The notes under the pieces are model-generated. The model saw only the letters and a list, made by a program, of their open reading frames with translations. It did not search any database and was not told the DNA's origin. The position numbers were made by a program, and so were the translations under genes. From Nocardia vinacea (GTDB taxonomy: Bacteria > Actinomycetota > Actinomycetes > Mycobacteriales > Mycobacteriaceae): 64,000 nt of DNA. The DNA lies in the NCBI RefSeq assembly GCF_035920345.1, contig NZ_CP109149.1, positions 2,418,001 through 2,482,000 of the forward strand, given 5' to 3'. Shown here one piece after another: positions 47,397 to 59,346 of this stretch (position 1 is the stretch's first letter; each line of letters begins with the position of its first letter).

Positions 47397-48326
47397 TCAG
47401 GACCCGGTGAACTGATTGCCGGAAATCGAGCGCGACTGCTCGCCGTTTACGCCGACCGGGATGTCGCCCTCGAGTGTGGTGCGGTACAGCACGCGGGTGA
47501 CATCGAGGTGGTTGAGGTCGCCCGGGGCCAGGTGGGCGGTGGCGCGGTTGTCCCAGAACGCCAGGCTGCCCTTTTCCCAACGGAATCGGACGGTGTAGGC
47601 CGGGTTCGACAGTTCGTCGAACAGCAGCTGGAGTACCGCGTCGCTCTGGGCCGGGCTCAGCCCGACGATGTGGGTGGTGAAACCGGGGTTGACGAAGAGC
47701 ACCTTCTCGCCGGTCACCGGGTGCACGCGCACGACGGGATGTTCGGTCACCAGCGGGGCATTGGCGACCTTCTTGGCGTAGTCGCTTTCCTCGTTCCATG
47801 CCGGACGGCTGCCGCCGAACCGGTGCACGGCCCGCAGCCCCTCGACGAACTTGCGCAGCGACTCGGGCAGGTTCGCGTAGGCCGCGGCGAGATTCGTCCA
47901 GCTGGTGTCCCCACCGCGCTCCGGGGCGATCTCGGCCCGCAGCAGCGACGCGGCGGGCGGGTTGATCAGTGCGGAGACATCGGTGTGCCACTGGTTGGTG
48001 TAGGTGAATTTCTTGATGCCGAAACGCTTTTCGTAGAGTCGGCTGTCGACGGCCAGAATTTCGGGGAATTCGGTCGGCGCGTCATCGTCGTAGGGATGTG
48101 ACGGCGTGACGGCGCCGAATCGCCGAGAGAAGGCGATGTGTTCGGCGTGACCGATGTGCTGGTCGCGGAAGAACAGCACCTTGTATTCGTAGAGGGCCGC
48201 GGTGATGTCGGCGACCTCCTGGTCGGTGAGTTCGGCCCGCAGGTCGACGCCCGCGATCTCGGCGCCGATATGTCCGGCGACGGGCGTGATCCGGAGGGTG
48301 GTGATGGGCTCGCTGACAGTGGTCAT
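47397..48326 (-). CDS. TauD/TfdA-family 2-oxoglutarate dioxygenase
   Basis: 309 residues, typical TauD length. Fe ligands: His and Asp in TNQWHTDVSALINPP (near 120) and the distal His in FWDNRATAHLAPGDL (near 265); the 2-oxoglutarate Arg is in RVLYRTTLEGD (near 285). Family members oxidise the carbon next to a sulfonate or sulfate ester to release sulfite or sulfate. It lies 109 bases downstream of the FMN monooxygenase and a full ssuABC transporter, so a role in sulfonate desulfonation is strongly suggested. The exact substrate is unknown. Confidence 0.9.
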   Translation of the reverse strand: MTTVSEPITTLRITPVAGHIGAEIAGVDLRAELTDQEVADITAALYEYKVLFFRDQHIGHAEHIAFSRRFGAVTPSHPYDDDAPTEFPEILAVDSRLYEKRFGIKKFTYTNQWHTDVSALINPPAASLLRAEIAPERGGDTSWTNLAAAYANLPESLRKFVEGLRAVHRFGGSRPAWNEESDYAKKVANAPLVTEHPVVRVHPVTGEKVLFVNPGFTTHIVGLSPAQSDAVLQLLFDELSNPAYTVRFRWEKGSLAFWDNRATAHLAPGDLNHLDVTRVLYRTTLEGDIPVGVNGEQSRSISGNQFTGS

Positions 48327-48435
48327 GGTCGTACCTTCTTCGGCAATGGATGGGGATGGTCGGTGGAGCACGGGCGACAACCGCTGCTGCCCATTCGCAT
48401 GAAGTCGACGGCGCGCCGCCTGGTCAGTCGGGGAC

Positions 48436-49782
48436 TCATGCGCCGAGTTCGGTTCGTACCTGGGCGAATTGGCTTTCCACCGGTGCCAGCCCGTAGTGCC
48501 CGCGCAGCGTCGTCGCGGTGTAGTCGGTGCGGAACAGGCCGCGCTCCTGCAGGATCGGGACCACCCGGTCCACGAAGTCCTCGAGGCCACCCGGCAGATA
48601 CGGCGGCATGATGTTGAAGCCGTCGGCGGCGCCGTTCTCGAACCAGGACTGCAGTTCGTCGGCGATATCGGTGGGTGTGCCTGCGAGGGTCCGGTGCCCG
48701 CGCCCGCCGCCCAGTTTGCCGATGAGCTGGCGCACCGTGAGTTTCTCGCGCTCGGCGAGTTCCTTGACCAGCGTGAATCTGCTCTTTCCGCCCTCGATTT
48801 CGCTCTCCGCGGGCAGCGGCGGCAGTGGTGCGTCGAGTGCGTGTTCGGTGAGATCGACGCCGAGCAGCGCAGACAGTTGCCGCAGGGCGTAATCCGGTGA
48901 GATGAGGTCGGTGAATTCCTGTTCGAGGGCGAGTGCTTCTTCGCGGGTGTCAGCGATGAACGGCACCAGACCGGGCAGCACCTTCAGTTCATCGGCCGAG
49001 CGACCGTACCTCGGCAGCCGCGCCTTCAGATCCCGATAGAACGCCTGCCCCTCCGCGAGCGAGCGCTGCGCGGTGAACACGGCCTCGGCGTAGTGCGCGG
49101 CGAAATCCTTACCGCTCTCCGACGATCCGGCCTGCACCAGCAGCGGGCGCCCCTGTGGGCTGCGCGGCGAATTCAGCGGGCCGCGTACCCGGAACCGATC
49201 ACTGGCGTAGTCGATGGTGTGCACTTTGTCCGGGTCGGCGAAGACGCCCTCGTCCGGATCGAGCACGATCGCCGAGGACTCCCAGCTGTCCCAGAGCCGC
49301 ACGGTGACATCCACGAACTCCTGTGCCCGCTCGTAGCGTCTGGCATGTTCGGGAATGGCGTCGAAGCCGAAGTTCAAGGCCTCGTCCTCGTTGCCCGAGG
49401 TGACGATATTCCAGCCCGCCCGACCGCTGCTGATGTGATCGAGTGAGGCGAATTTGCGGGCCAGGTTGAACGGTTCGTTGTAGGTGGTCGACGCCGTCGC
49501 GATGAGCCCGACCCGTTCGGTCGCCGCAGCGATCGCGGCAAGCAAGGTGACCGGCTCGAATACGGCGAGGGTATTGCGCTTGATCCGCGGTCCGACGGCC
49601 AACCCGTCGGCGAAGAAGACCGAGTCGAGTTTGCCGCGTTCGGCGATCCGGCCGAGCTCCTGAAAATGCCGCACATCCAGTACGCGGCGCTCCTCGGTCC
49701 GGGGGTGCCGCCAGGCCGCCTCGTGATGTCCGACGCCCATCAGGAAGGCATTGAGGTGGAATTGCTTGCGGGGTAACGACAT
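48436..49782 (-). CDS. NtaA/DmoA-family FMN-dependent monooxygenase
   Basis: 448 residues, a bacterial luciferase-like TIM barrel. Family signatures: QFHLNAFLMGVGHHEAAWRHP near 7 (key A-W-R-H-P), FFADGLAVGP near 57, FEPVTLLAAIAAATERVGLIATAST and GRAGWNIVTSGNEDEA near 130, then SPQGRPLLVQAGSSESGKDFAA near 225. These enzymes use FMNH2 and O2 to cleave C-S or C-N bonds in dialkyl sulfides, sulfones or chelators. AAGGA precedes the ATG. It follows ssuC by 8 bases. No flavin reductase gene is nearby, so one must be supplied elsewhere. Confidence 0.92.
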   Translation of the reverse strand: MSLPRKQFHLNAFLMGVGHHEAAWRHPRTEERRVLDVRHFQELGRIAERGKLDSVFFADGLAVGPRIKRNTLAVFEPVTLLAAIAAATERVGLIATASTTYNEPFNLARKFASLDHISSGRAGWNIVTSGNEDEALNFGFDAIPEHARRYERAQEFVDVTVRLWDSWESSAIVLDPDEGVFADPDKVHTIDYASDRFRVRGPLNSPRSPQGRPLLVQAGSSESGKDFAAHYAEAVFTAQRSLAEGQAFYRDLKARLPRYGRSADELKVLPGLVPFIADTREEALALEQEFTDLISPDYALRQLSALLGVDLTEHALDAPLPPLPAESEIEGGKSRFTLVKELAEREKLTVRQLIGKLGGGRGHRTLAGTPTDIADELQSWFENGAADGFNIMPPYLPGGLEDFVDRVVPILQERGLFRTDYTATTLRGHYGLAPVESQFAQVRTELGA

Positions 49783-49790
49783 CGGAGTCC

Positions 49791-50666
49791 TTAACGGGAG
49801 GGCTCGGCGCGCCACCGGGACAGGTGGCGTTCGAGAGCGACGAGTAGGCCGTTGAAACTCAGCCCGAGTAGCGAGATGGCGATGATGCCCGCATACATAT
49901 TCGGGATCTGGAAGTTCTGCTGGGCCGCGGTGATCAGATAGCCGAGTCCGGCACGGGCACCGACCATTTCGGCGGCGATGAGCACCAGGATCGAGGACGC
50001 CGCCGCCATTCGCACGCCGGTGAAGATCGATGGCACCGCAGCGGGCAGGATCACCTTCTGGAACAGCCGAATCGGCGAGAAGCCGAGCGACACGGCGGAT
50101 TTGATCAGCAGCGGGTCCACGGTGCGCACACCGGTGATGGTGTTCAACAGGATCGGGAAGAAGCTCGCGTACACCACGAGCGCGATCTTGGAGGTCTCCC
50201 CGATGCCCAGGATCAGGATGAACACGGGCAACAGCGCCAGTGCCGCGGTATTGCGGAACAATTCGAGGATCGGGTTCAGAAAGTCGGCCACCGGTCGATA
50301 CCAGGCGATGGCGACACCGACCGGAATGGCCACTGCGAGCGCGAGCGAAAATCCGGTCGCCGACCGCGTCAGGCTCGTCGAGACGTGCTCCCACATCTGA
50401 CCGCTCTGCACCAGATCGATGAAGGCCTGCGCGACGGTCGAAAACGGCGGCAGGAAGACCTCGTCCACCAAACCGAGCCGGGGCGCCGCCTCCCATATCG
50501 CGACCAGCAGGCCGATGGCGAAGGTGGGCTTGAAGATTCGCCACGCCAGCAGCGCGACCGCCCGCACTACCCGCGACACGTCGACTTTCCGTGTCGGCGC
50601 GGACTCGGCCCGGCTGCGGATGACAACCGGCCGTGACTTCTCGACGACTTGCACTGCGCTAGACAT
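49791..50666 (-). CDS. ssuC: Sulfonate-type ABC transporter permease
   Basis: 291 residues, about six helices with a hydrophilic N-terminus. The BPD-type EAA loop is at VSLGFSPIRLFQKVILPAAVPSIFTGVR near 200 (key SLGFS...VILPAAVPSI). This is the SsuC/TauC subfamily. ATG 50666 overlaps the ATPase stop by 8 bases, so translation is probably coupled. With SsuB and SsuA-like proteins it forms an importer for aliphatic sulfonates or related sulfur compounds. Confidence 0.92.
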   Translation of the reverse strand: MSSAVQVVEKSRPVVIRSRAESAPTRKVDVSRVVRAVALLAWRIFKPTFAIGLLVAIWEAAPRLGLVDEVFLPPFSTVAQAFIDLVQSGQMWEHVSTSLTRSATGFSLALAVAIPVGVAIAWYRPVADFLNPILELFRNTAALALLPVFILILGIGETSKIALVVYASFFPILLNTITGVRTVDPLLIKSAVSLGFSPIRLFQKVILPAAVPSIFTGVRMAAASSILVLIAAEMVGARAGLGYLITAAQQNFQIPNMYAGIIAISLLGLSFNGLLVALERHLSRWRAEPSR

Positions 50667-51498
50667 GAACCGGCTTCCTCTCGATGCTCGTGGCCGACAA
50701 CGACTCGCGTTCGAGTCCCTGCGCCCGGGTGACTTCGCTTTGCAACTGCGACCAGATCTGGTGCCGTGCCTCCCGGAAGGGTTCGCTGGAGCGCACATCC
50801 GCACCGGAGTTCCGGTCGATATCGATATCGATCACCGCCTTGATCCGCCCCGGCCGTGAGGTCAGCACGGCGACTCGCTGGCCGAGGTAGACGGCCTCGT
50901 CGATGCCGTGGGTGATGAACAGAATCGTTTTCCCGGTGGCCTTCCAGATCCGTAACAGTTCGTCCTGCAATGACTCCCGGGTCTGGGCGTCGAGTGCGGC
51001 GAACGGCTCGTCCATCAGCAGCACCTCCGGATCGAAGGCGAGGCTGCGGGCGATGGCGACTCGCTGTTTCATGCCGCCGGACAGCTCATGCGGATATCGG
51101 TCGCCGAATCCGGCCAGGCCCACCAGTTCCAGGTATTCGTCGGCGATCTTCCGGCGTTCCCGACGTCGGACACCCTTCGCCTCCAAACCGAATTCGATAT
51201 TTGCCCGGGCGGTGCGCCACGGCAGCAGCGCGTACTGCTGGAAGACGATGCCGCGGTCCAGACCGGGTCCGCTGATCGGCTTGCCGTCCAACAGGATTCG
51301 CCCGGCACTCGGCTTGCTGAGCCCGCCGAGCAGATCGAGCAGCGTCGACTTCCCGGAACCGCTCGGGCCAACAAGCACCAGGAACTCGCCATCGCGCAAT
51401 TCCAGCGAAATATCCTCGATTGCGGTGAACTCCTCGTTCGACCCACGGACCGGGAACTGTTTGCGCACTCCGGTGAGTGCGAGTTTCACCTGACTCAT
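50659..51498 (-). CDS. ssuB: Sulfonate-type ABC transporter ATP-binding protein
   Basis: 279 residues. Walker A GPSGSGKST near 45, Q-loop IVFQQYALLPWRTARANI (near 88; the QxxxLxPW pattern of SsuB/TauB), signature LSGGMKQRVAIARSLA near 140, Walker B VLLMDEPFAALD and the switch His in ITHGIDEAVYL. The C-terminal 50 residues are an extension typical of the subfamily. The ATG overlaps the solute-binding protein stop as ATGA. Cytoplasmic face of the importer. Confidence 0.93.
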   Translation of the reverse strand: MSQVKLALTGVRKQFPVRGSNEEFTAIEDISLELRDGEFLVLVGPSGSGKSTLLDLLGGLSKPSAGRILLDGKPISGPGLDRGIVFQQYALLPWRTARANIEFGLEAKGVRRRERRKIADEYLELVGLAGFGDRYPHELSGGMKQRVAIARSLAFDPEVLLMDEPFAALDAQTRESLQDELLRIWKATGKTILFITHGIDEAVYLGQRVAVLTSRPGRIKAVIDIDIDRNSGADVRSSEPFREARHQIWSQLQSEVTRAQGLERESLSATSIERKPVHV

Positions 51499-52580
51499 TT
51501 CGACGCGACCACCTCTCCGGTCGGTCCGGTGGCCGGACCGTAGGTACCGTTGGCGTACGGGTTGTCCTTGTTGGTGTACAGATCCTTCGCCGTCAGCTTT
51601 CCGGCGGGCACATCACCGTTGCGGACCAGCCAATCGATCCAGATCTGCAGTTCCTTCTCCGCGATCACCGCACCGGGGACCGGGAGGCCTGGGCTCCGCC
51701 AGAATTTCAGCAGATCGGTGTTCTCATTGCGTCCGCGCTTGTTGATGATCGAGGCGAAGCGCGCGACCACCTCATCGCGCGGGGTCACCTGCAGCCAGCG
51801 CGTCGCCCGCGCGGTCCCCTGGACGAAGTCCTTGACGGCCTCCGGGTGCTGGGCGATGTAATCCTTGCGGAAAACATAAGTGCCGTAGTCGAATTGACCG
51901 AACAGATCCTTATCGGTGTAGAGCGCGTGGATACCGCCGCGCCCGACCGCGCTCTCCCGGAAGACTGCGCCCAACGCGGCGACATCGATCTGCCCCTTGC
52001 GCAGAGCGTCCTCGGTATTGGCCGGCGGCACCACGATCAACTCGACCTGTTTGATCTCCTGGTCGGTCAGCCCCTGCTGGTGCAGCCATTCCCGGGTGAT
52101 GAATTCATGGTGTGCGCCAAGGGTATTGATGCCGACCTTCTTGCCGATCAGATCCCTGGGCGAGTTGATGCCCGAATCGTCACGGACGAAGTAGCCGGTG
52201 AACGACTGCTCATCCGCGCCGTACGAGCTGAGCACCGAGGTGACGGGCGCACCGCCCGCGGCCAACTTGACGACCGCGCCGTTGAAGGCGCTGCCGAACT
52301 CGATCTGGCGGGTCGCGGCGGCCTGGATATTCGCCGGTCCGCTGGTGGTGTCACCCTCCCAGTGCAGCGCGATCTTGCTGAAGTAGCCGAGATCGTCCGC
52401 CAGTTCGTATGCCGAGACCTGGCCGGTCGATCCCTGGTAGCGCAATACGGCCTTGCCGTCGGCATTGGTGCCCGGCTCGGATTTGCCGCAGCCGGTGAGC
52501 ACCGCGACCGCGGCGGGAATGGTGAGTACGGCGGCCACCGCACGGACGAACCGTGGCCTGGTTTTCGGGGACAGCGTCAT
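51495..52580 (-). CDS. ssuA: Sulfonate ABC transporter substrate-binding lipoprotein
   Basis: 361 residues. Lipoprotein signal: basic start, hydrophobic core and LTGC lipobox near residue 32 (VAVLTGCGKSE). The SsuA/TauA-like fold shows in TRQIEFGSAFNGAVVKLAAGG (near 95), LIGKKVGINTLGAHHEF (near 148) and DVAALGAVFRESAV (near 200). It anchors on the outer face of the cytoplasmic membrane and delivers the substrate to SsuBC. ATG 52580 is chosen; the frame extends to 52631 without reason. A leader peptide gene lies 119 bases upstream. Its ribosome site is weak (AAAGAA), consistent with regulated or coupled initiation. Confidence 0.92.
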   Translation of the reverse strand: MTLSPKTRPRFVRAVAAVLTIPAAVAVLTGCGKSEPGTNADGKAVLRYQGSTGQVSAYELADDLGYFSKIALHWEGDTTSGPANIQAAATRQIEFGSAFNGAVVKLAAGGAPVTSVLSSYGADEQSFTGYFVRDDSGINSPRDLIGKKVGINTLGAHHEFITREWLHQQGLTDQEIKQVELIVVPPANTEDALRKGQIDVAALGAVFRESAVGRGGIHALYTDKDLFGQFDYGTYVFRKDYIAQHPEAVKDFVQGTARATRWLQVTPRDEVVARFASIINKRGRNENTDLLKFWRSPGLPVPGAVIAEKELQIWIDWLVRNGDVPAGKLTAKDLYTNKDNPYANGTYGPATGPTGEVVASK

Positions 52581-52636
52581 GGAAGTTCTTTCACGGAATG
52601 CGCACTGCCGCAGCGCAATAGGGCACGCCACAACGG

Positions 52637-52660
52637 CAGGTAAGCGCGGAGGATTACCTG
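52637..52660 (-). promoter_or_regulatory. Stem-loop between leader peptide and ssuA
   Basis: CAGGTAA (52637-52643) pairs with TTACCTG (52654-52660), a 7-bp stem; on the transcribed strand the 10-base loop contains TCCTCC, an anti-Shine-Dalgarno-like run. It lies between the leader peptide stop and ssuA, where an attenuator would be expected. Confidence 0.5.
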
Positions 52661-52699
52661 ATCGGCTAATGCGGCGACCCTATTTCGGCGACCGCGGAT

Positions 52700-52777
52700 T
52701 CAGGCGCGACAGACTCCATGGGGCAGGCGCATGAAATCCACCGTGCGACGGCGGATCAGCGCAATGGATTCGATCAT
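52700..52777 (-). CDS. Leader peptide of the sulfonate operon
   Basis: 25 codons, MIESIALIRRRTVDFMRLPH followed by GVCRA and stop. The R-R-x-V-D-x-x-R...C-R pattern matches the short 'putative leader peptides' that precede many sulfur-assimilation genes in actinobacteria, as I remember them; related upstream ORFs in mycobacteria act as cysteine-responsive attenuators. GAAGG lies 9 bases before the ATG. Its position 119 bases upstream of ssuA, on the same strand, and the hairpin between them support an attenuation role. Confidence 0.72.
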   Translation of the reverse strand: MIESIALIRRRTVDFMRLPHGVCRA

Positions 52778-52883
52778 GTCAACGACCTTCGTGGGATTCG
52801 GATAGAAGCGGCGACCCCGCGGCTTTGTGTCCATGGTGGGGTCGCCCGCCAGGGACGACAATGCCGATTTCACATTGTGAAAA

Positions 52884-53648
52884 TCACCGTGAGTACAACT
52901 CCACCGGCGCATCGGTGATGGCGGCGGTGGACTGGAACAGTGGCCCGATCCGGCCCGCGATCTGCCGCATAGCAGGCACGATGCCGCGCACCAGTTCCTC
53001 GTTCAGCCGCGCAGAACGGGCCTGCACGCCGAGCGCACCCCAGACCTGCCTATCGGGGCCGAGGACCGGCACCGCCACCGAGCGGACCGGATCCTCGCGC
53101 TCGATGATCTCCACGGCGAAACCGCTGCGCCGCACACGATCCAGATCTGTCAGCGGCGCAGGCCGTCGATCGAGTCCGTCGACAAAGGGCGCGAAGGCCA
53201 GCAGGGCCTGGCCGACGGCGCTGGAGCGCAGCGGCTGGCGGGCCTGCGGCAACTGGTTGGGGCAGAAGTACACCGGCGGCCGCGCCTGGAAGACCGTGAC
53301 CGCGTCCCGCTCGTCGGCGACGCTCAGGCTAACGGTGATCTTGATGCCTGCGGCCAGCGCGTAGAGGTGCGGTGCGGCCGCGTCGATGCCCAACCGCGAC
53401 AGCGCGGGTCGGGCCAGCGAGGCCAGCCCGTGTCCGATGCGATAGCGATCGGTCGCCGGATCCTGCTCCAGCAACCGGCCCCGCACCAATGCCTGGGCCA
53501 GCCGATAAGTCGTGCTGACCGGAAATCCAGCACGATGCGCCAATTCGCTCACCGACAGCTCGGGATCATCGCCCTCGAAGCAGTTCAGTACGTGAATCGC
53601 GCGGTCGACCGCTTGGGCACCCGAACGGGGTTGATCGGCGGCAGTCAT
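52884..53648 (-). CDS. IclR-family transcriptional regulator
   Basis: 254 residues. An N-terminal winged helix (residues about 12-70: VDRAIHVLNCFEGDDPELSVSELAHRAGFPVSTTYRLAQAL, key SVSELAHRAGFPVSTTYRL) is followed by the IclR effector domain with GQALLAFAPF near 140 and VAVPVLGPDRQVWGALGVQAR near 190. AGGAGG lies 5 bases before the ATG. It sits between the divergent flavoprotein/ferredoxin pair and the leader peptide plus ssu operon, so it probably controls one or both. Effector unknown; a sulfur-containing acid is plausible. Confidence 0.92.
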   Translation of the reverse strand: MTAADQPRSGAQAVDRAIHVLNCFEGDDPELSVSELAHRAGFPVSTTYRLAQALVRGRLLEQDPATDRYRIGHGLASLARPALSRLGIDAAAPHLYALAAGIKITVSLSVADERDAVTVFQARPPVYFCPNQLPQARQPLRSSAVGQALLAFAPFVDGLDRRPAPLTDLDRVRRSGFAVEIIEREDPVRSVAVPVLGPDRQVWGALGVQARSARLNEELVRGIVPAMRQIAGRIGPLFQSTAAITDAPVELYSR

Positions 53649-53894
53649 GGTTCCTCCTGATATTTCTACCGATCGGGATGTGGCCAGAACTATCGCCGGG
53701 CAATCCGAGCACGGCAATGGTTCTGCGCCCGCTGCGCCGATTCCTCGCGCAGGAATCTCGGTAGCGTCAAAATCGCGCTGATTCGAAGGGTTCTGCGATC
53801 GCGGCGACGTGCACAGAATTGAATTCCCCGCGCTGACCCCGCATTCCGCCGACGATTGCCTCTTTCGCAATCCCGACGTATCAGGAGCAGACGC

Positions 53895-55469
53895 ATGAGT
53901 GAACTCTGGCAGACCAGCACCGATGTACTGGTGATCGGCGGCGGTCCGGCCGCCGCATGGGCGGCCATCCACGCGCGGGAGGCCGGCGTGGAGGTGACCC
54001 TGGTAGACAAGGGCTACTGCGGAACCAGCGGCGCGACAGCACCTTCCGGCACCGGCGTTTGGTACGTCGCCCCGGAGGCGACCGCCCGTGCCAATGCCAA
54101 GGCCAGCCGGGAGGCCCTCGGCGGCCATCTCGCCGATCACTATTGGATGGATCGGGTCCTCGATCAGACCTACACCAACATGAATCGGCTTGCCGTGGAA
54201 GGCAAGTACCCGTTTCCAGCCGACCCGGCGACCAGTGAGCAGCTGCGCACCGGGGTGCAGGGCCCGGAGTACATGCGCCGGATGCGCGCGTGGATCAAGC
54301 GGCTCGGCGTCCGGATCCTCGACCATTCACCGGCTCTCGAACTGCTCGTCGACGATGCGGGCACGGTCCGCGGCGCGGCCGGATACCAGCGTCAACTCGA
54401 CCGCGACTACCGCACCACGGCGGGTGCGGTGGTGCTGGCCAGTGGCGGTTGTGCATTCCTGTCGCGCGCGTTGGGCACCAATGTCGATACTGGTGACGGC
54501 GCGCTGATGGCCGCCGAGGTGGGCGCGCGCTTCTCCGGGATGGAATTCTCCAATGCCTACGCGATCGTGCCGAAGGGCTCGACCATCACCAAGACCGCCT
54601 ACTACGGCTACGCGACGTTCTTCCACGAGGACGGACAGGTGCTCGAGGGCGCAGGATCCACGAAAGGCCGATCGGTGATCGCCCGAACCCTGTTGTCGGA
54701 GAAAGTATTCGCCCAACTCGACCGCGCCGACCGGACGGTGCAGACGCAGATGCGGCTCGGGCAGCCCAACTTCTTTCTGCAGTTCGATCGGCGCGGTATC
54801 AATCCGTTCACCGATCGTTTCGAGGTCGATCTGCTCGCCGAGGGCACCGTGCGCGGAACCGGCGGTATCGATATCGTGGACGACGACTGCGCGACCACGG
54901 TGCCCGGTCTGTTCGCGGCGGGCGACGCGGCGACCAGGGAACGCATCTGCGGTGGTTTCACCGGTGGCGGCAGCCACAATTCGGCATGGGCGATGTCGTC
55001 GGGGAGTTGGGCCGGTGCGGGGGCGGCACGGTTCGCGCTCGGCTCGTCTCGGCCGGACGATGCCGCTCTGCGCGGCGCGGGACGAACCGGCTTGCGGCCC
55101 AGTGACTCCCCCACGCTCGATACCGCCGAAGTTGTCGAGGCCGCGCAGGCCGAGCTGATTCCGTTCCAGAAGAACTACCTGCGCCACGGCGAGCGACTGC
55201 GGCCCGCACTCGATGCACTCGACACGCTCTGGGAGCGCGCAGGTAAGGAGCTCGGTGGCCGCACCGGTGACGATCGCATCCGGGCCAGGCAGGCCGCCGC
55301 CATCACCGCGGTCGGTCGGCTCATGTACGAATCGACTTTGGCGCGCACCGAGACTCGCGGTATGAGCAAGCGCGCAGACCATCCGGAACAGGATCCGGCG
55401 CAGCGCCACCACATTCTGTCCGGCGGTCTCGACGCCGTGTGGACCAAGACCGCCGAGGTCGCGTCATGA
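53895..55469 (+). CDS. AprA-like FAD-binding oxidoreductase (fumarate reductase/succinate dehydrogenase flavoprotein family)
   Basis: 524 residues. FAD motif VLVIGGGPAAAWAAIHAREAGVEVTLVDKG at 12-41 (key GGGPAAAWAA), then GTSGATAPSG near 54, VLASGGCAFLS near 190, and the C-terminal FAD contact LFAAGDAATRERICGGFTGGGSHN near 345 (key G-D-A...G-G-S-H-N). The architecture resembles adenylylsulfate reductase alpha subunit and fumarate reductases. Its stop overlaps the start of a ferredoxin gene (ATGA), so the two form a complex by inference, like AprAB. AGGAG lies 8 bases before the ATG. Divergent from IclR and the ssu operon; likely a redox step in the same sulfur pathway. Confidence 0.85.
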   Translation: MSELWQTSTDVLVIGGGPAAAWAAIHAREAGVEVTLVDKGYCGTSGATAPSGTGVWYVAPEATARANAKASREALGGHLADHYWMDRVLDQTYTNMNRLAVEGKYPFPADPATSEQLRTGVQGPEYMRRMRAWIKRLGVRILDHSPALELLVDDAGTVRGAAGYQRQLDRDYRTTAGAVVLASGGCAFLSRALGTNVDTGDGALMAAEVGARFSGMEFSNAYAIVPKGSTITKTAYYGYATFFHEDGQVLEGAGSTKGRSVIARTLLSEKVFAQLDRADRTVQTQMRLGQPNFFLQFDRRGINPFTDRFEVDLLAEGTVRGTGGIDIVDDDCATTVPGLFAAGDAATRERICGGFTGGGSHNSAWAMSSGSWAGAGAARFALGSSRPDDAALRGAGRTGLRPSDSPTLDTAEVVEAAQAELIPFQKNYLRHGERLRPALDALDTLWERAGKELGGRTGDDRIRARQAAAITAVGRLMYESTLARTETRGMSKRADHPEQDPAQRHHILSGGLDAVWTKTAEVAS

Positions 55470-55804
55470 TCGAAGTCGTACTCGCCGAGGCCTGCATCGG
55501 CTGCGATAAATGTGTGGACGCCTGCCCCACCAACGTATTCGACCGCACCGAATCCGGAATCCCGGTCATCGCAAGGCAATCCGACTGCCAGACCTGCTTC
55601 ATGTGCGAGGCCTACTGCCCGACCGACGCTCTCTACGTCGACCCCGAATCCACCCCGCTACCTCCCGGCAGCCCGATCGCCCAGGATCAGATCGGCCGCT
55701 ACCGCGAGAAGATCGGCTGGGGCAAGGGTCGCACCGCGGGCAGCCTGCTCGCCATCGGCCCCCGGCTCCCCCACGGCGCGCCCCCGCCCCGCCTGCGGCA
55801 CTAA
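55466..55804 (+). CDS. Two-[4Fe-4S] ferredoxin, AprB-like
   Basis: 112 residues. Two complete cluster motifs: CIGCDKCVDACP near residue 10 and CQTCFMCEAYCP near 41, each with C-x2-C-x2-C-x3-C-P. The 45-residue C-terminal tail after the clusters (YREKIGWGKG) may wrap the partner, as in AprB. ATG lies in the stop of the flavoprotein gene, so translation is coupled. Electron partner of that flavoprotein by inference. The stop TAA interlocks with the stop of the convergent TetR gene (CTAA). Confidence 0.92.
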   Translation: MIEVVLAEACIGCDKCVDACPTNVFDRTESGIPVIARQSDCQTCFMCEAYCPTDALYVDPESTPLPPGSPIAQDQIGRYREKIGWGKGRTAGSLLAIGPRLPHGAPPPRLRH

Positions 55805-56499
55805 TCGCGGTAGCCGAGTTGTTCGAGGAGACCGTCGAGTTGGAGTTCGAACAGTTCGGCGCGGTCGGTGAAGGTGTCGGTGCCGTACTGATCGAAGACG
55901 TCGAAGGTTACGGCGCCGAACACCCCGACCCACATGGTGATGCCGCGTGCGACGAGCCAGTCCGGTAGGTCGTGGTCGAATGCGGCTCTGATATCCGCGA
56001 AATTGGCTGCGAGCGCGGAGGATAACGGGCGCTCCTTGACCGGAGCGGTGAGCATGTCTTCGCGGTAGGCGCGGGCGAAGAGGGTTTGCATTGTCGCGAT
56101 GACCCGCGTGCCGGGGACGGTGGTCTCCTCGGAGGGAGCGTCGTAGCCCGGCACCGGTGTGCCGAATAAAAGTCCGTAGCGGGCCGGTTCCGCAAGTGCC
56201 CAACCGCGGACAGTACGGCCGACGATGCGCAGGCCCTCGATCGGATCGTCGGGGGCATCGGCCAGCGCCGCATCGACCGCGTCGCCGAGTGCGTTGTAGC
56301 CGTCGATCACGAGCAGTGTAAGCAGTTCATCGCGGCTGCGGACGTAGCGGTATACCGCCGACGACACCACACCGAGATCGCGGGCGACCGCGCGCAGCGA
56401 GAGGGCCGCCGCGCCATCGGTGGCCAGATGTTCGCGGCCGATCCGGACGATATCGTTCATGGTCTGGGCCCTGGCCCGGGCACGTGGTGTCGTCGCCAT
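55801..56499 (-). CDS. TetR-family transcriptional regulator
   Basis: 232 residues from ATG 56499; ATG 56511 is the alternative. HTH at about 30-60: ALSLRAVARDLGVVSSAVYRYVRSRDELL (key LRAVARDLGVVSSAVYRYV). The C-terminal domain includes RYGLLFGTPVPGY and a W-V-x-x-F-G-A-V-T-F-D segment typical of the WHG subgroup. Divergent from an NAD-dependent epimerase gene, with three similar inverted repeats in the 130-base gap, so it likely represses that gene and itself. Confidence 0.92.
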   Translation of the reverse strand: MATTPRARARAQTMNDIVRIGREHLATDGAAALSLRAVARDLGVVSSAVYRYVRSRDELLTLLVIDGYNALGDAVDAALADAPDDPIEGLRIVGRTVRGWALAEPARYGLLFGTPVPGYDAPSEETTVPGTRVIATMQTLFARAYREDMLTAPVKERPLSSALAANFADIRAAFDHDLPDWLVARGITMWVGVFGAVTFDVFDQYGTDTFTDRAELFELQLDGLLEQLGYRD

Positions 56500-56514
56500 A
56501 CCGATCACCATGCG

Positions 56515-56606
56515 CGCTCTAGAGAGCGATGTCAACTAATGTGAGCACTGCTCTTGACTTTGATTCGCGGCGGTTGCATGCTTGTACACAACAGAGAGCA
56601 CCGCTC
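56515..56606. promoter_or_regulatory. Triple AGAGC/GCTCT inverted repeats (TetR operators)
   Basis: CGCTCT-AG-AGAGCG at 56515-56528, GAGCA-C-TGCTC at 56543-56553, and GAGC-ACC-GCTC at 56596-56606. The last two share the core GAGCAC(T/C)GCTC. All lie between the divergent TetR and epimerase genes. Confidence 0.65.
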
Positions 56607-57621: not shown

Positions 57622-59346
57622 ATGGACCAGCGAGAAACGGATTTCGACGTACTCGTGGTCGGTTCGGGATTCGGCGGCAGCGTCACGGCGCTGCGGCTGA
57701 TCGAGAAGGGCTACCGGGTCGGTGTGCTCGAGGCCGGTCGACGCTATGCCGATGACGAGCTACCCGAAACCAGCTGGGACCTGCGCAAATTCCTGTGGGC
57801 GCCGAAGCTCGGCTGCTACGGCATCCAGCGCATCCACCCGCTGCGCAACGTGTTGATCCTCGGCGGTGCGGGTGTCGGCGGCGGTTCGCTCAACTACGCC
57901 AATACGCTCTATGTGCCACCGGAGCCGTTCTTCCAGGACCAGCAGTGGTGCGATATCACCGACTGGCGTGCCGAGCTCACCCCGTACTACGAGCGCGCGA
58001 AGAAGATGCTCGGCGTGGTGCAGAACCCGCATCTGACACCGGCGGACGAGGTGTTCAAGAAGGTCGCCGACGATATGGGCTGCGGCGAGACCTTCGTGCA
58101 GACCCCGGTCGGCGTCTTCTTCGGCGAACCGGGACAGACCGTCGCGGATCCGTACTTCGGCGGTGTCGGACCGGACCGCACCGGCTGCCTCGAATGCGGC
58201 GAATGCATGACCGGCTGCCGTCACGGCGCGAAGAACACCCTGGTGAAGAATTACCTGTACCTCGCGGAAAAGGCTGGCGCGCAGGTGATTCCGATGACGA
58301 CGGTGACCTCGATCCGTCCGCTGCCCGATGGCACCTGGGATATCTCGACCGAACGCACCGGCGCCTGGTTCCGCAAGCGCCCGCAGACCTACACCGCGGG
58401 CCAAGTCGTACTCGCCGCAGGGACCCTCGGCACCCAGAAGTTGTTGCACGCCATGCGGGATCGGGGCGTGCTCCCCGAATTGTCCGACCGACTCGGCCAA
58501 CTCACACGCACCAACTCCGAATCCATTGTGGGCGCGGCGACCCGCAAGGTGAATCCGGACGTCGACTTCACCCGTGGCGTCGCGATCACGTCATCGATCC
58601 ACCCGACCCACGACACCCATATCGAGCCGGTGCGCTACGGCAAGGGCTCGAATGTGATGGGGCTGATGCAGACCCTGATGGTCGACGGCGGCGGCCGCAT
58701 ACCGCGCTGGCTGCGCTTCCTCGGCCAGGTGGTGCGAAACCCGTTCACTCTCATCAGTTTCCTGAGCGTGAAGAACTGGAGTGAGCGCACCATCATCTCG
58801 CTGGTGATGCAGCACCTCGACAATTCGATCACCACTTACACCAAGCGCACCCTGTTCGGCCGCAAGCTCACCAGTAAACAGGGCCACGGCGAACCCAATC
58901 CGACCTGGATTCCGGCGGGCAACGAGGTGACCCGCAAGGTCGCGGAGGAAATCGGCGGCGTCGCGGGCGGCAGCTGGGGCGAAGTCTTCAATATCCCGCT
59001 CACCGCCCACTTCCTCGGCGGCGCACCCATCGGCGCGGACCGCGATACCGGCGTAATCGACGCCTACCACCGAGTTTTCGGCTACCCGACCCTCAGCATC
59101 GTCGACGGCGCCGCCGTCTCCGCGAACCTGGGCGTCAACCCGTCGCTCACGATCACCGCCCAAGCCGAACGCTGCGCCGCCTACTGGCCCAACAAGGGTG
59201 AACAGGACCTGCGTCCCCTACAAGGCGTTGCCTACCAACAGATCCAGCCCATCGCCCCCAATAAGCCCGCCGTCCCCGCCGACGCCCCGGCCGCCCTGGT
59301 CCTCCCGATCGTCGAAATCCGCACCCACAAATCCGCCGCCAGCTGA
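57622..59346 (+). CDS. choD: GMC-family oxidoreductase, ChoD-type (putative cholesterol oxidase)
   Basis: 574 residues, close in length and text to Mycobacterium tuberculosis Rv3409c (ChoD) as I recall it. FAD motif VVGSGFGGSVTALRLIEKGYRVGVLEAG at 13-40 (key GSGFGGSVTA), GGAGVGGGSLNYANTLYVPP near 88, and a C-terminal GMC region with VVDGAAVSANLGVNPSLTITAQAE (key NLGVNPSLTI). Cys motif CLECGECMTGC near 192. No signal peptide. Despite the name, activity on cholesterol by ChoD-type proteins is disputed. GAGGAG lies 6 bases before the ATG. Neighbours give no sterol context. Confidence 0.85.
   Translation: MDQRETDFDVLVVGSGFGGSVTALRLIEKGYRVGVLEAGRRYADDELPETSWDLRKFLWAPKLGCYGIQRIHPLRNVLILGGAGVGGGSLNYANTLYVPPEPFFQDQQWCDITDWRAELTPYYERAKKMLGVVQNPHLTPADEVFKKVADDMGCGETFVQTPVGVFFGEPGQTVADPYFGGVGPDRTGCLECGECMTGCRHGAKNTLVKNYLYLAEKAGAQVIPMTTVTSIRPLPDGTWDISTERTGAWFRKRPQTYTAGQVVLAAGTLGTQKLLHAMRDRGVLPELSDRLGQLTRTNSESIVGAATRKVNPDVDFTRGVAITSSIHPTHDTHIEPVRYGKGSNVMGLMQTLMVDGGGRIPRWLRFLGQVVRNPFTLISFLSVKNWSERTIISLVMQHLDNSITTYTKRTLFGRKLTSKQGHGEPNPTWIPAGNEVTRKVAEEIGGVAGGSWGEVFNIPLTAHFLGGAPIGADRDTGVIDAYHRVFGYPTLSIVDGAAVSANLGVNPSLTITAQAERCAAYWPNKGEQDLRPLQGVAYQQIQPIAPNKPAVPADAPAALVLPIVEIRTHKSAAS

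Follow-up and report, generated by a model that had tools for sequence, protein, structure and literature searches.

What a flavoprotein and a ferredoxin contribute to sulfonate use, when their coupled genes stand divergently beside a sulfonate-type transporter set, is the question raised by a region of the Nocardia vinacea genome (10.36 Mb, one contig). The region lies at positions 47397 to 55804 of a 64,000-nucleotide stretch of contig NZ_CP109149.1 (2,418,001 to 2,482,000), hereafter called the window. The pair belongs to a genetically known kind: it is very probably AsfA and AsfB, as judged from family relationships, and the whole divergent region is probably a sulfur-scavenging island of the ssu and asf kind, acting along the pathway proposed below. 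This reading is based on gene content, gene coupling, family identity by sequence, a conserved neighbourhood and a predicted fold.

Soil sulfur is mostly organic, much of it present as sulfonate (PMC4267179), and asfA serves as a marker gene for aromatic desulfonation (PMC4267179, PMC9694294). The primary asf studies are cited here through excerpts of PMC4267179, PMC9694294 and PMC2864759. The region contains the following genes.

47397..48335, minus strand: TauD/TfdA-family 2-oxoglutarate dioxygenase, last in the transporter run (Pfam TauD, 218 bits)
48436..49752, minus strand: luciferase-like monooxygenase (LLM) using flavin mononucleotide (FMN), NtaA/DmoA family (TIGR03860, 574 bits; cut-off 279.7)
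49791..50669, minus strand: SsuC/TauC-type ATP-binding cassette (ABC) permease (Pfam BPD_transp_1)
50659..51498, minus strand: SsuB/TauB-type ABC ATPase (Pfam ABC_tran)
51495..52583 (frame open from 52631), minus strand: SsuA/NMT1-type substrate-binding protein (Pfam NMT1, 81.7 bits)
52700..52777, minus strand: leader peptide MIESIALIRRRTVDFMRLPHGVCRA, upstream of ssuA (translation)
52884..53648, minus strand: IclR-family regulator (Pfam HTH_IclR, 60.5 bits; IclR_C, 53.6 bits)
53895..55469, plus strand: AsfA-type flavin adenine dinucleotide (FAD) flavoprotein of 524 residues (P0001 is this protein minus its Met; Pfam FAD_binding_2, 64.9 bits; cut-off 20.4)
55466..55804, plus strand: AsfB-type ferredoxin of 112 residues (P0002) with two [4Fe-4S] motifs and a C-terminal tail (Fer4_7, 40.1 bits; cut-off 27)

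All genes named in an initial annotation, made from the sequence letters, are thus present, as judged from Pfam and NCBIfam matches and translations, including the leader peptide. The coupling that it described is equally plain: the flavoprotein stop and the ferredoxin start share the letters ATGA, a 4-nucleotide overlap that can be read directly. The transporter and dioxygenase genes all fall under NCBIfam cut-offs. The binding protein scores 84 bits with the SsuA family TIGR01728 (cut-off 163.5), the top model for the ATPase is the taurine ATPase (256 bits; cut-off 357), the SaoP, SsuC and TauC models each stay under their cut-offs for the permease, and the dioxygenase reaches 234.5 bits with the taurine dioxygenase equivalog model (cut-off 313). 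Their substrate names are therefore not assured.

Identity of the flavoprotein-ferredoxin pair

The flavoprotein reaches none of the cut-offs of the 25 NCBIfam families shown, and its top named match, at 97%, is from Nocardia pseudovaccinii. A link to a named system is provided by Cupriavidus metallidurans CH34, for which the cited part of a published paper annotates Rmet_4334/5 as 'reductase-ferredoxin AsfA/AsfB'. The window flavoprotein is 57% identical to the sole match at 1e-30 on the CH34 megaplasmid (NC_007974.2, 928,288-929,733), and there too the flavoprotein gene is followed by a ferredoxin relative. Six TauD genes on NC_007974.2 match in order Rmet_4136, 4409, 4633, 5119, 5292 and, beyond the origin, 5823; successive intervals amount to 1.08, 1.16, 1.13 and 1.04 kb per tag, and to 1.12 kb per tag for the one that spans the origin. 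From these values the place of Rmet_4334 was interpolated by hand to about 923 kb, some 5 kb away from the matched flavoprotein gene.

A review describes asfRABC as comprising genes for a regulator of the LysR type, for a reductase/ferredoxin system and for a binding protein; when asfA of Pseudomonas putida S-313 was disrupted by a transposon, the mutant could no longer use aromatic sulfonates but still used aliphatic ones (PMC4267179). Rhodococcus and Williamsia are among the known asfA carriers (PMC4267179, PMC9694294). On the strength of the CH34 match, the published annotation and the asf genetics, the pair is therefore called AsfAB; this very probable assignment links the proteins through an annotation and a map position rather than through the S-313 sequence. 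The initial annotation had spoken of an unassigned redox step; for the pair itself the word 'unassigned' does not hold, since it matches published proteins known genetically for aromatic-sulfonate use.

The window shares with the asfRABC regions of P. putida S-313 and CH34 the order of flavoprotein gene and ferredoxin gene, as well as an SsuA-type binding protein and ssu-type genes nearby. It differs in carrying an NtaA/DmoA-type LLM in place of SsuD, together with a TauD gene. The asfC-type binding protein and AsfR are companions of the pair, not the pair itself.

Conservation of the pair and its neighbourhood

To see whether the pair forms a unit, 121 loci with a flavoprotein relative were examined, of which 115 paired loci were counted and six loci of lone paralogues, termed group C, were set aside. 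The 115 comprise 80 genome contigs (those most similar to the query), 8 plasmid records (of 59 with matches), 17 and 9 further genome stretches, and the window; 12 regions were taken from the Nocardia matches, and L033 and L090 are one locus by all signs. Neighbours were counted with tblastn. The controls were 20 loci that surround further FAD_binding_2 matches in this genome, part of 60 listed, several of them weak.

A ferredoxin relative accompanies the flavoprotein in 115 of the 121 loci, hence in all 115 after group C is set aside, and in none of the controls. The overlap of the two genes is 4 nucleotides in 90/115 loci and 1 nucleotide in 20/115, and both the eight-Cys motif and the C-terminal tail motif of AsfB are kept in 112 of 114 relatives. 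Sulfonate-type genes are found nearby far more often than in the controls: the SsuB and SsuC pair in 69/115 against 2/20, a binding protein of either SsuA type in 84/115 against 2/20, LLM relatives in 63/115 against 0/20 (41/115, the window included, at ≥50% identity over 70% of the length, again against 0/20), and TauD relatives in 33/115 against 0/20. The order asfA-asfB-binding protein occurs in 30/115. When the loci are reduced to 32 representatives with less than 75% identity, the ferredoxin is present in 32, SsuB and SsuC in 22, the LLM in 19 and TauD in 7 (Fisher p of 8e-15, 4e-5, 5e-6 and 0.035, respectively). The gene-neighbourhood survey suggested by the initial annotation thus supports the pair as a real unit and ties it to sulfonate-type genes beyond this strain.

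At L048 (8826-10732) the ferredoxin gene precedes the flavoprotein gene, opposite to the other 114 loci. A second AsfA-type flavoprotein gene, with a best identity to the window protein of 44-54%, is seen about 2-3 kb downstream at L099, L103, L112, L120, L123 and L134, with a second ferredoxin relative beside it in all of these except L099.

The flavoprotein family is large (4759 matches at 1e-20 among 8000 candidates scored), and paired relatives span four phyla, i.e., Actinomycetota, Pseudomonadota, Bacillota (Paenibacillus) and Cyanobacteriota (Nostoc). Within the genus, a match at 1e-40 is present in 139 of 150 genomes, group C included. SsuABC, the LLM and the pair occur together also in Streptomyces, Pseudonocardia, Kibdelosporangium, Lentzea, Saccharothrix and Mycolicibacterium. 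Rhodococcus opacus (L091) and R. erythropolis (L087) likewise have the pair. In four of eight named Streptomyces loci (L093, L095, L101 and L104) the genes run in one direction in the order SsuA-SsuB-SsuC-LLM-pair-TauD, and related sets are present in Kibdelosporangium, Lentzea, Saccharothrix, Pseudonocardia, Planosporangium, Amycolatopsis (without the LLM) and several Nocardia. The divergent arrangement of the window is kept in L169-L172; it also occurs in Mycolicibacterium L109, where the genes stand in a different order. At L052, L053 and L055 the same flavoprotein clade is preceded by another SsuBC set that has a binding protein of its own, and at L177 a flavoprotein of 58% identity stands behind a transporter-LLM set 75-85% identical to that of the window. 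Since the pair is found behind differing transporter sets, it looks like a module that is combined with various transporters.

The group C paralogues (L032, L049, L050 and L178-L180) show 42-47% identity and have no ferredoxin relative in range. The three group C rows included in the tree described below nest within the AsfA side. In L032, the sole group C neighbourhood that was typed, genes for malic enzyme, CorA and MgtE lie nearby. A member is present in this genome as well (G000:C1:5464497-5465987; L030, L032).

A number of observations weigh against the reading of the region as an ssu and asf island. The CH34 link passes through an annotation and a position interpolated about 5 kb off, without the S-313 AsfA sequence, and the name 'AsfA' does not occur in the listed 240 rows of two flavoprotein searches, where most entries carry generic names or none. 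The window has an IclR regulator instead of the LysR-type AsfR and no asfC-type gene directly after asfB, and no LysR gene was found among 20 neighbouring open reading frames picked from eight other loci, a subset of the neighbours. The family is patchy, with a match at 1e-30 in 19 of the 394 genomes of the class (of the matches in this search, two in one genome that are cut by contig ends were left aside). No binding protein is present in 31/115 paired loci, and no transporter pair, LLM or TauD in 21/115. The exclusion of group C was made after three of its six loci had been seen to be without a ferredoxin, and the 80 contigs were picked by similarity to the query and are therefore not a random sample.

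Predicted fold and active-site residues of AsfA

In the predicted fold, AsfA aligns to complex II flavoproteins across residues 3-523, which leaves no room for a nicotinamide adenine dinucleotide (phosphate), NAD(P)H, domain; Pfam Pyr_redox_2 matches just positions 2-111 of its 291 profile positions. Without such a domain a role as ferredoxin reductase is unlikely, and on the modelled structure that label appears doubtful. AsfA has the fold shared by complex II, AprA and phosphoadenylylsulfate (PAPS) reductase, yet belongs to none of these. In the tree it falls apart from AprA and SdhA: the AprA rows lie on one side with support 99/100, and AsfA together with group C on a separate side with 94/89, the deep order and the long-branched outgroups being unsure.

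The highest structural Z and profile scores, over the whole length, are obtained with fumarate reductase, SdhA and L-aspartate oxidase. That the pair is a relative of these dicarboxylate enzymes and stands beside sulfonate genes by accident is highly improbable. In Escherichia coli FrdA we take H232, H355 and R390 to be the substrate residues and H44 to be the FAD-linking residue. In the HMMER alignment H44, H232, H355 and R390 are placed with AsfA G45, Y221, E315 and G356, which are invariant in 17 rows; in the MAFFT alignment the SdhA counterparts of H355 and R390 are opposite gaps in AsfA. The two placements differ, yet either way H355 and R390 are not kept. Unlike the dicarboxylate enzymes, AsfA also has a ferredoxin with two [4Fe-4S] clusters as its partner, and both the conserved neighbourhood of the pair and the lack of a match above cut-off among the 25 NCBIfam families shown count against this reading. 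Fumarate reductase, succinate dehydrogenase and L-aspartate oxidase were accordingly rejected on substrate residues and curated cut-offs. With the neighbourhood conserved and the fumarate-reductase residues absent, neither of the outcomes that the initial annotation had named as speaking against it, i.e., conservation confined to this strain or placement among fumarate reductases, therefore occurred.

A closer relation is conceivable with adenylylsulfate (APS) or PAPS reductases, in which case the pair would act on released sulfite, either as a reductase-like enzyme or by oxidizing sulfite together with AMP. AsfAB shares with AprAB the two-subunit plan, a Gly replacing the FAD-linking His, an SSG stretch and a ferredoxin-type beta subunit with two [4Fe-4S] clusters. 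AsfAB differs in its separate clade, its shorter alpha subunit and the lack of the APS-site residues, which we take to be AprA R265 and H398. In all 17 AsfA rows of the MAFFT alignment R265 is opposite a 7-residue gap and H398 opposite Val or Ile (V318 in P0001); the placement is uncertain because identity is low, and three of the eight AprA rows used pass the AprA model cut-off. The AprA model scores 38.4 bits on the flavoprotein (cut-off 557), and in the profile search AprA reaches 54 bits, under the best SdhA, FrdA, PAPS reductase alpha and L-aspartate oxidase chains. No dissimilatory genes were seen near AsfAB. With the PAPS reductase of Methanothermococcus thermolithotrophicus (PDB entry 8a8o), AsfA shows 19% identity in the structural alignment, and the capping-domain profile reaches that enzyme at just E 1.3, while the AsfB ferredoxin matches chain 8a8o_C with E 2.5e-8. 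No PAPS-pathway gene, neither ATP sulfurylase nor APS kinase, is named in the seven annotated plasmid loci. An APS or PAPS type of reaction is thus improbable, and APS reductase was rejected on model score, residues and tree. The term "AprA-like" used in the initial annotation holds at the level of the superfamily, but a specific kinship with AprA is not supported, nor are the APS-binding residues R265 and H398 kept in the sequence alignment.

AprA-model matches with open frames of 665-685 codons occur in small Actinomycetota genomes of about 1.8-2.4 Mb (L204-L208), with scores of 355-367 bits where NF005331 requires 557.

Proposed mechanism

In the proposed pathway, SsuABC would import sulfonates, and the NtaA/DmoA-type monooxygenase and the TauD-like dioxygenase would cleave C-S bonds oxidatively, releasing sulfite. 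AsfA and AsfB would widen the range to sulfonates beyond the reach of the oxygenases alone, most likely aromatic ones. The two proteins may form a complex like that of AprAB or of the Methanothermococcus PAPS reductase, in which the two [4Fe-4S] clusters of AsfB would pass electrons between the AsfA FAD and an outside carrier, and the FAD would act on the sulfonate or its product in a two-electron step before or after oxygenation.

The published view, in the excerpts cited, is a different one and counts against this proposal: AsfAB feeds electrons to an oxygenase. In such a chain of reductase and ferredoxin, the LLM monooxygenase or its flavin would be the acceptor, as might be expected from the LLM relatives in more than half of the paired loci. 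The predicted fold of AsfA does not favour this explanation, matching complex II flavoproteins over its whole length without an NAD(P)H domain. In the complex II-type superfamily the FAD exchanges two electrons with a small molecule, with the Fe-S partner as a wire, and LLM enzymes normally obtain reduced FMN (FMNH2) from a separate flavin reductase. The electron-transfer chain, the main rival of the proposal, is for these reasons considered unlikely. A substrate-redox role at the AsfA FAD, rather than an NAD(P)H-ferredoxin reductase activity, is our tentative inference, falling short of an even chance. No paper giving the reaction or biochemistry of AsfA/AsfB was found in the open-licence PMC literature, nor were asfA primer sequences found in the main text of open-licence PMC papers. 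Excerpts from studies of gene expression in Rhodococcus qingshengii IGTS8, Gordonia NB4-1Y, G. terrae C-6 and G. alkanivorans 135 do not mention such a flavoprotein.

A more speculative extension of the substrate-redox role, and a rather doubtful one, is that AsfAB constitutes a third, aerobic branch of the AprAB/PAPS-reductase architecture, with flavin chemistry directly on organosulfonates. With low-potential electrons delivered through AsfB, the FAD would then reduce an arylsulfonate or activate it, yielding, e.g., a sulfinate or dearomatised adduct, and this product would be opened by the LLM monooxygenase as partner enzyme. If this were true, desulfonation would proceed by reduction followed by oxygenation across at least four phyla, and AsfAB would be concealed by the labels 'FAD-binding protein' and 'ferredoxin family protein'.

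The reaction of AsfAB, a genetically known pair in a well-conserved neighbourhood, is worth testing. It can be tested directly because AsfA has a fold of the complex II/AprA type, with its own set of invariant residues, and not that of a ferredoxin reductase. A better label would follow for a large family whose members mostly carry generic names.

Leader peptide and regulation

The leader peptide upstream of ssuA has 25 residues and ends in VCRA. A scan of 30 selected loci, made without a chance control, revealed comparable Cys-ending peptides upstream of ssuA in 17, the window among them, and none in 13, including the near relative L170. The patterns are RRRTVDLMR...C in Nocardia and HVDLRRQ...C in Streptomyces, Saccharothrix, Lentzea and Amycolatopsis. 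From this pattern, together with general knowledge of such peptides, the leader is probably a cysteine-sensing attenuator, and leader and IclR regulator together would probably switch the genes on when sulfur (cysteine) is scarce. A search of 52580-53900 revealed no promoter- or terminator-like site, and no paper on actinobacterial cysteine attenuation was found in the open-licence PMC literature.

Adjacent genes

Beyond asfB lies a TetR-family gene on the minus strand (55801-56535), the 3' end of which overlaps that of the ferredoxin gene by 4 nucleotides. Further downstream, a GMC oxidoreductase of the cholesterol oxidase kind is encoded on the plus strand (57625-59346; 587 bits against a cut-off of 850).

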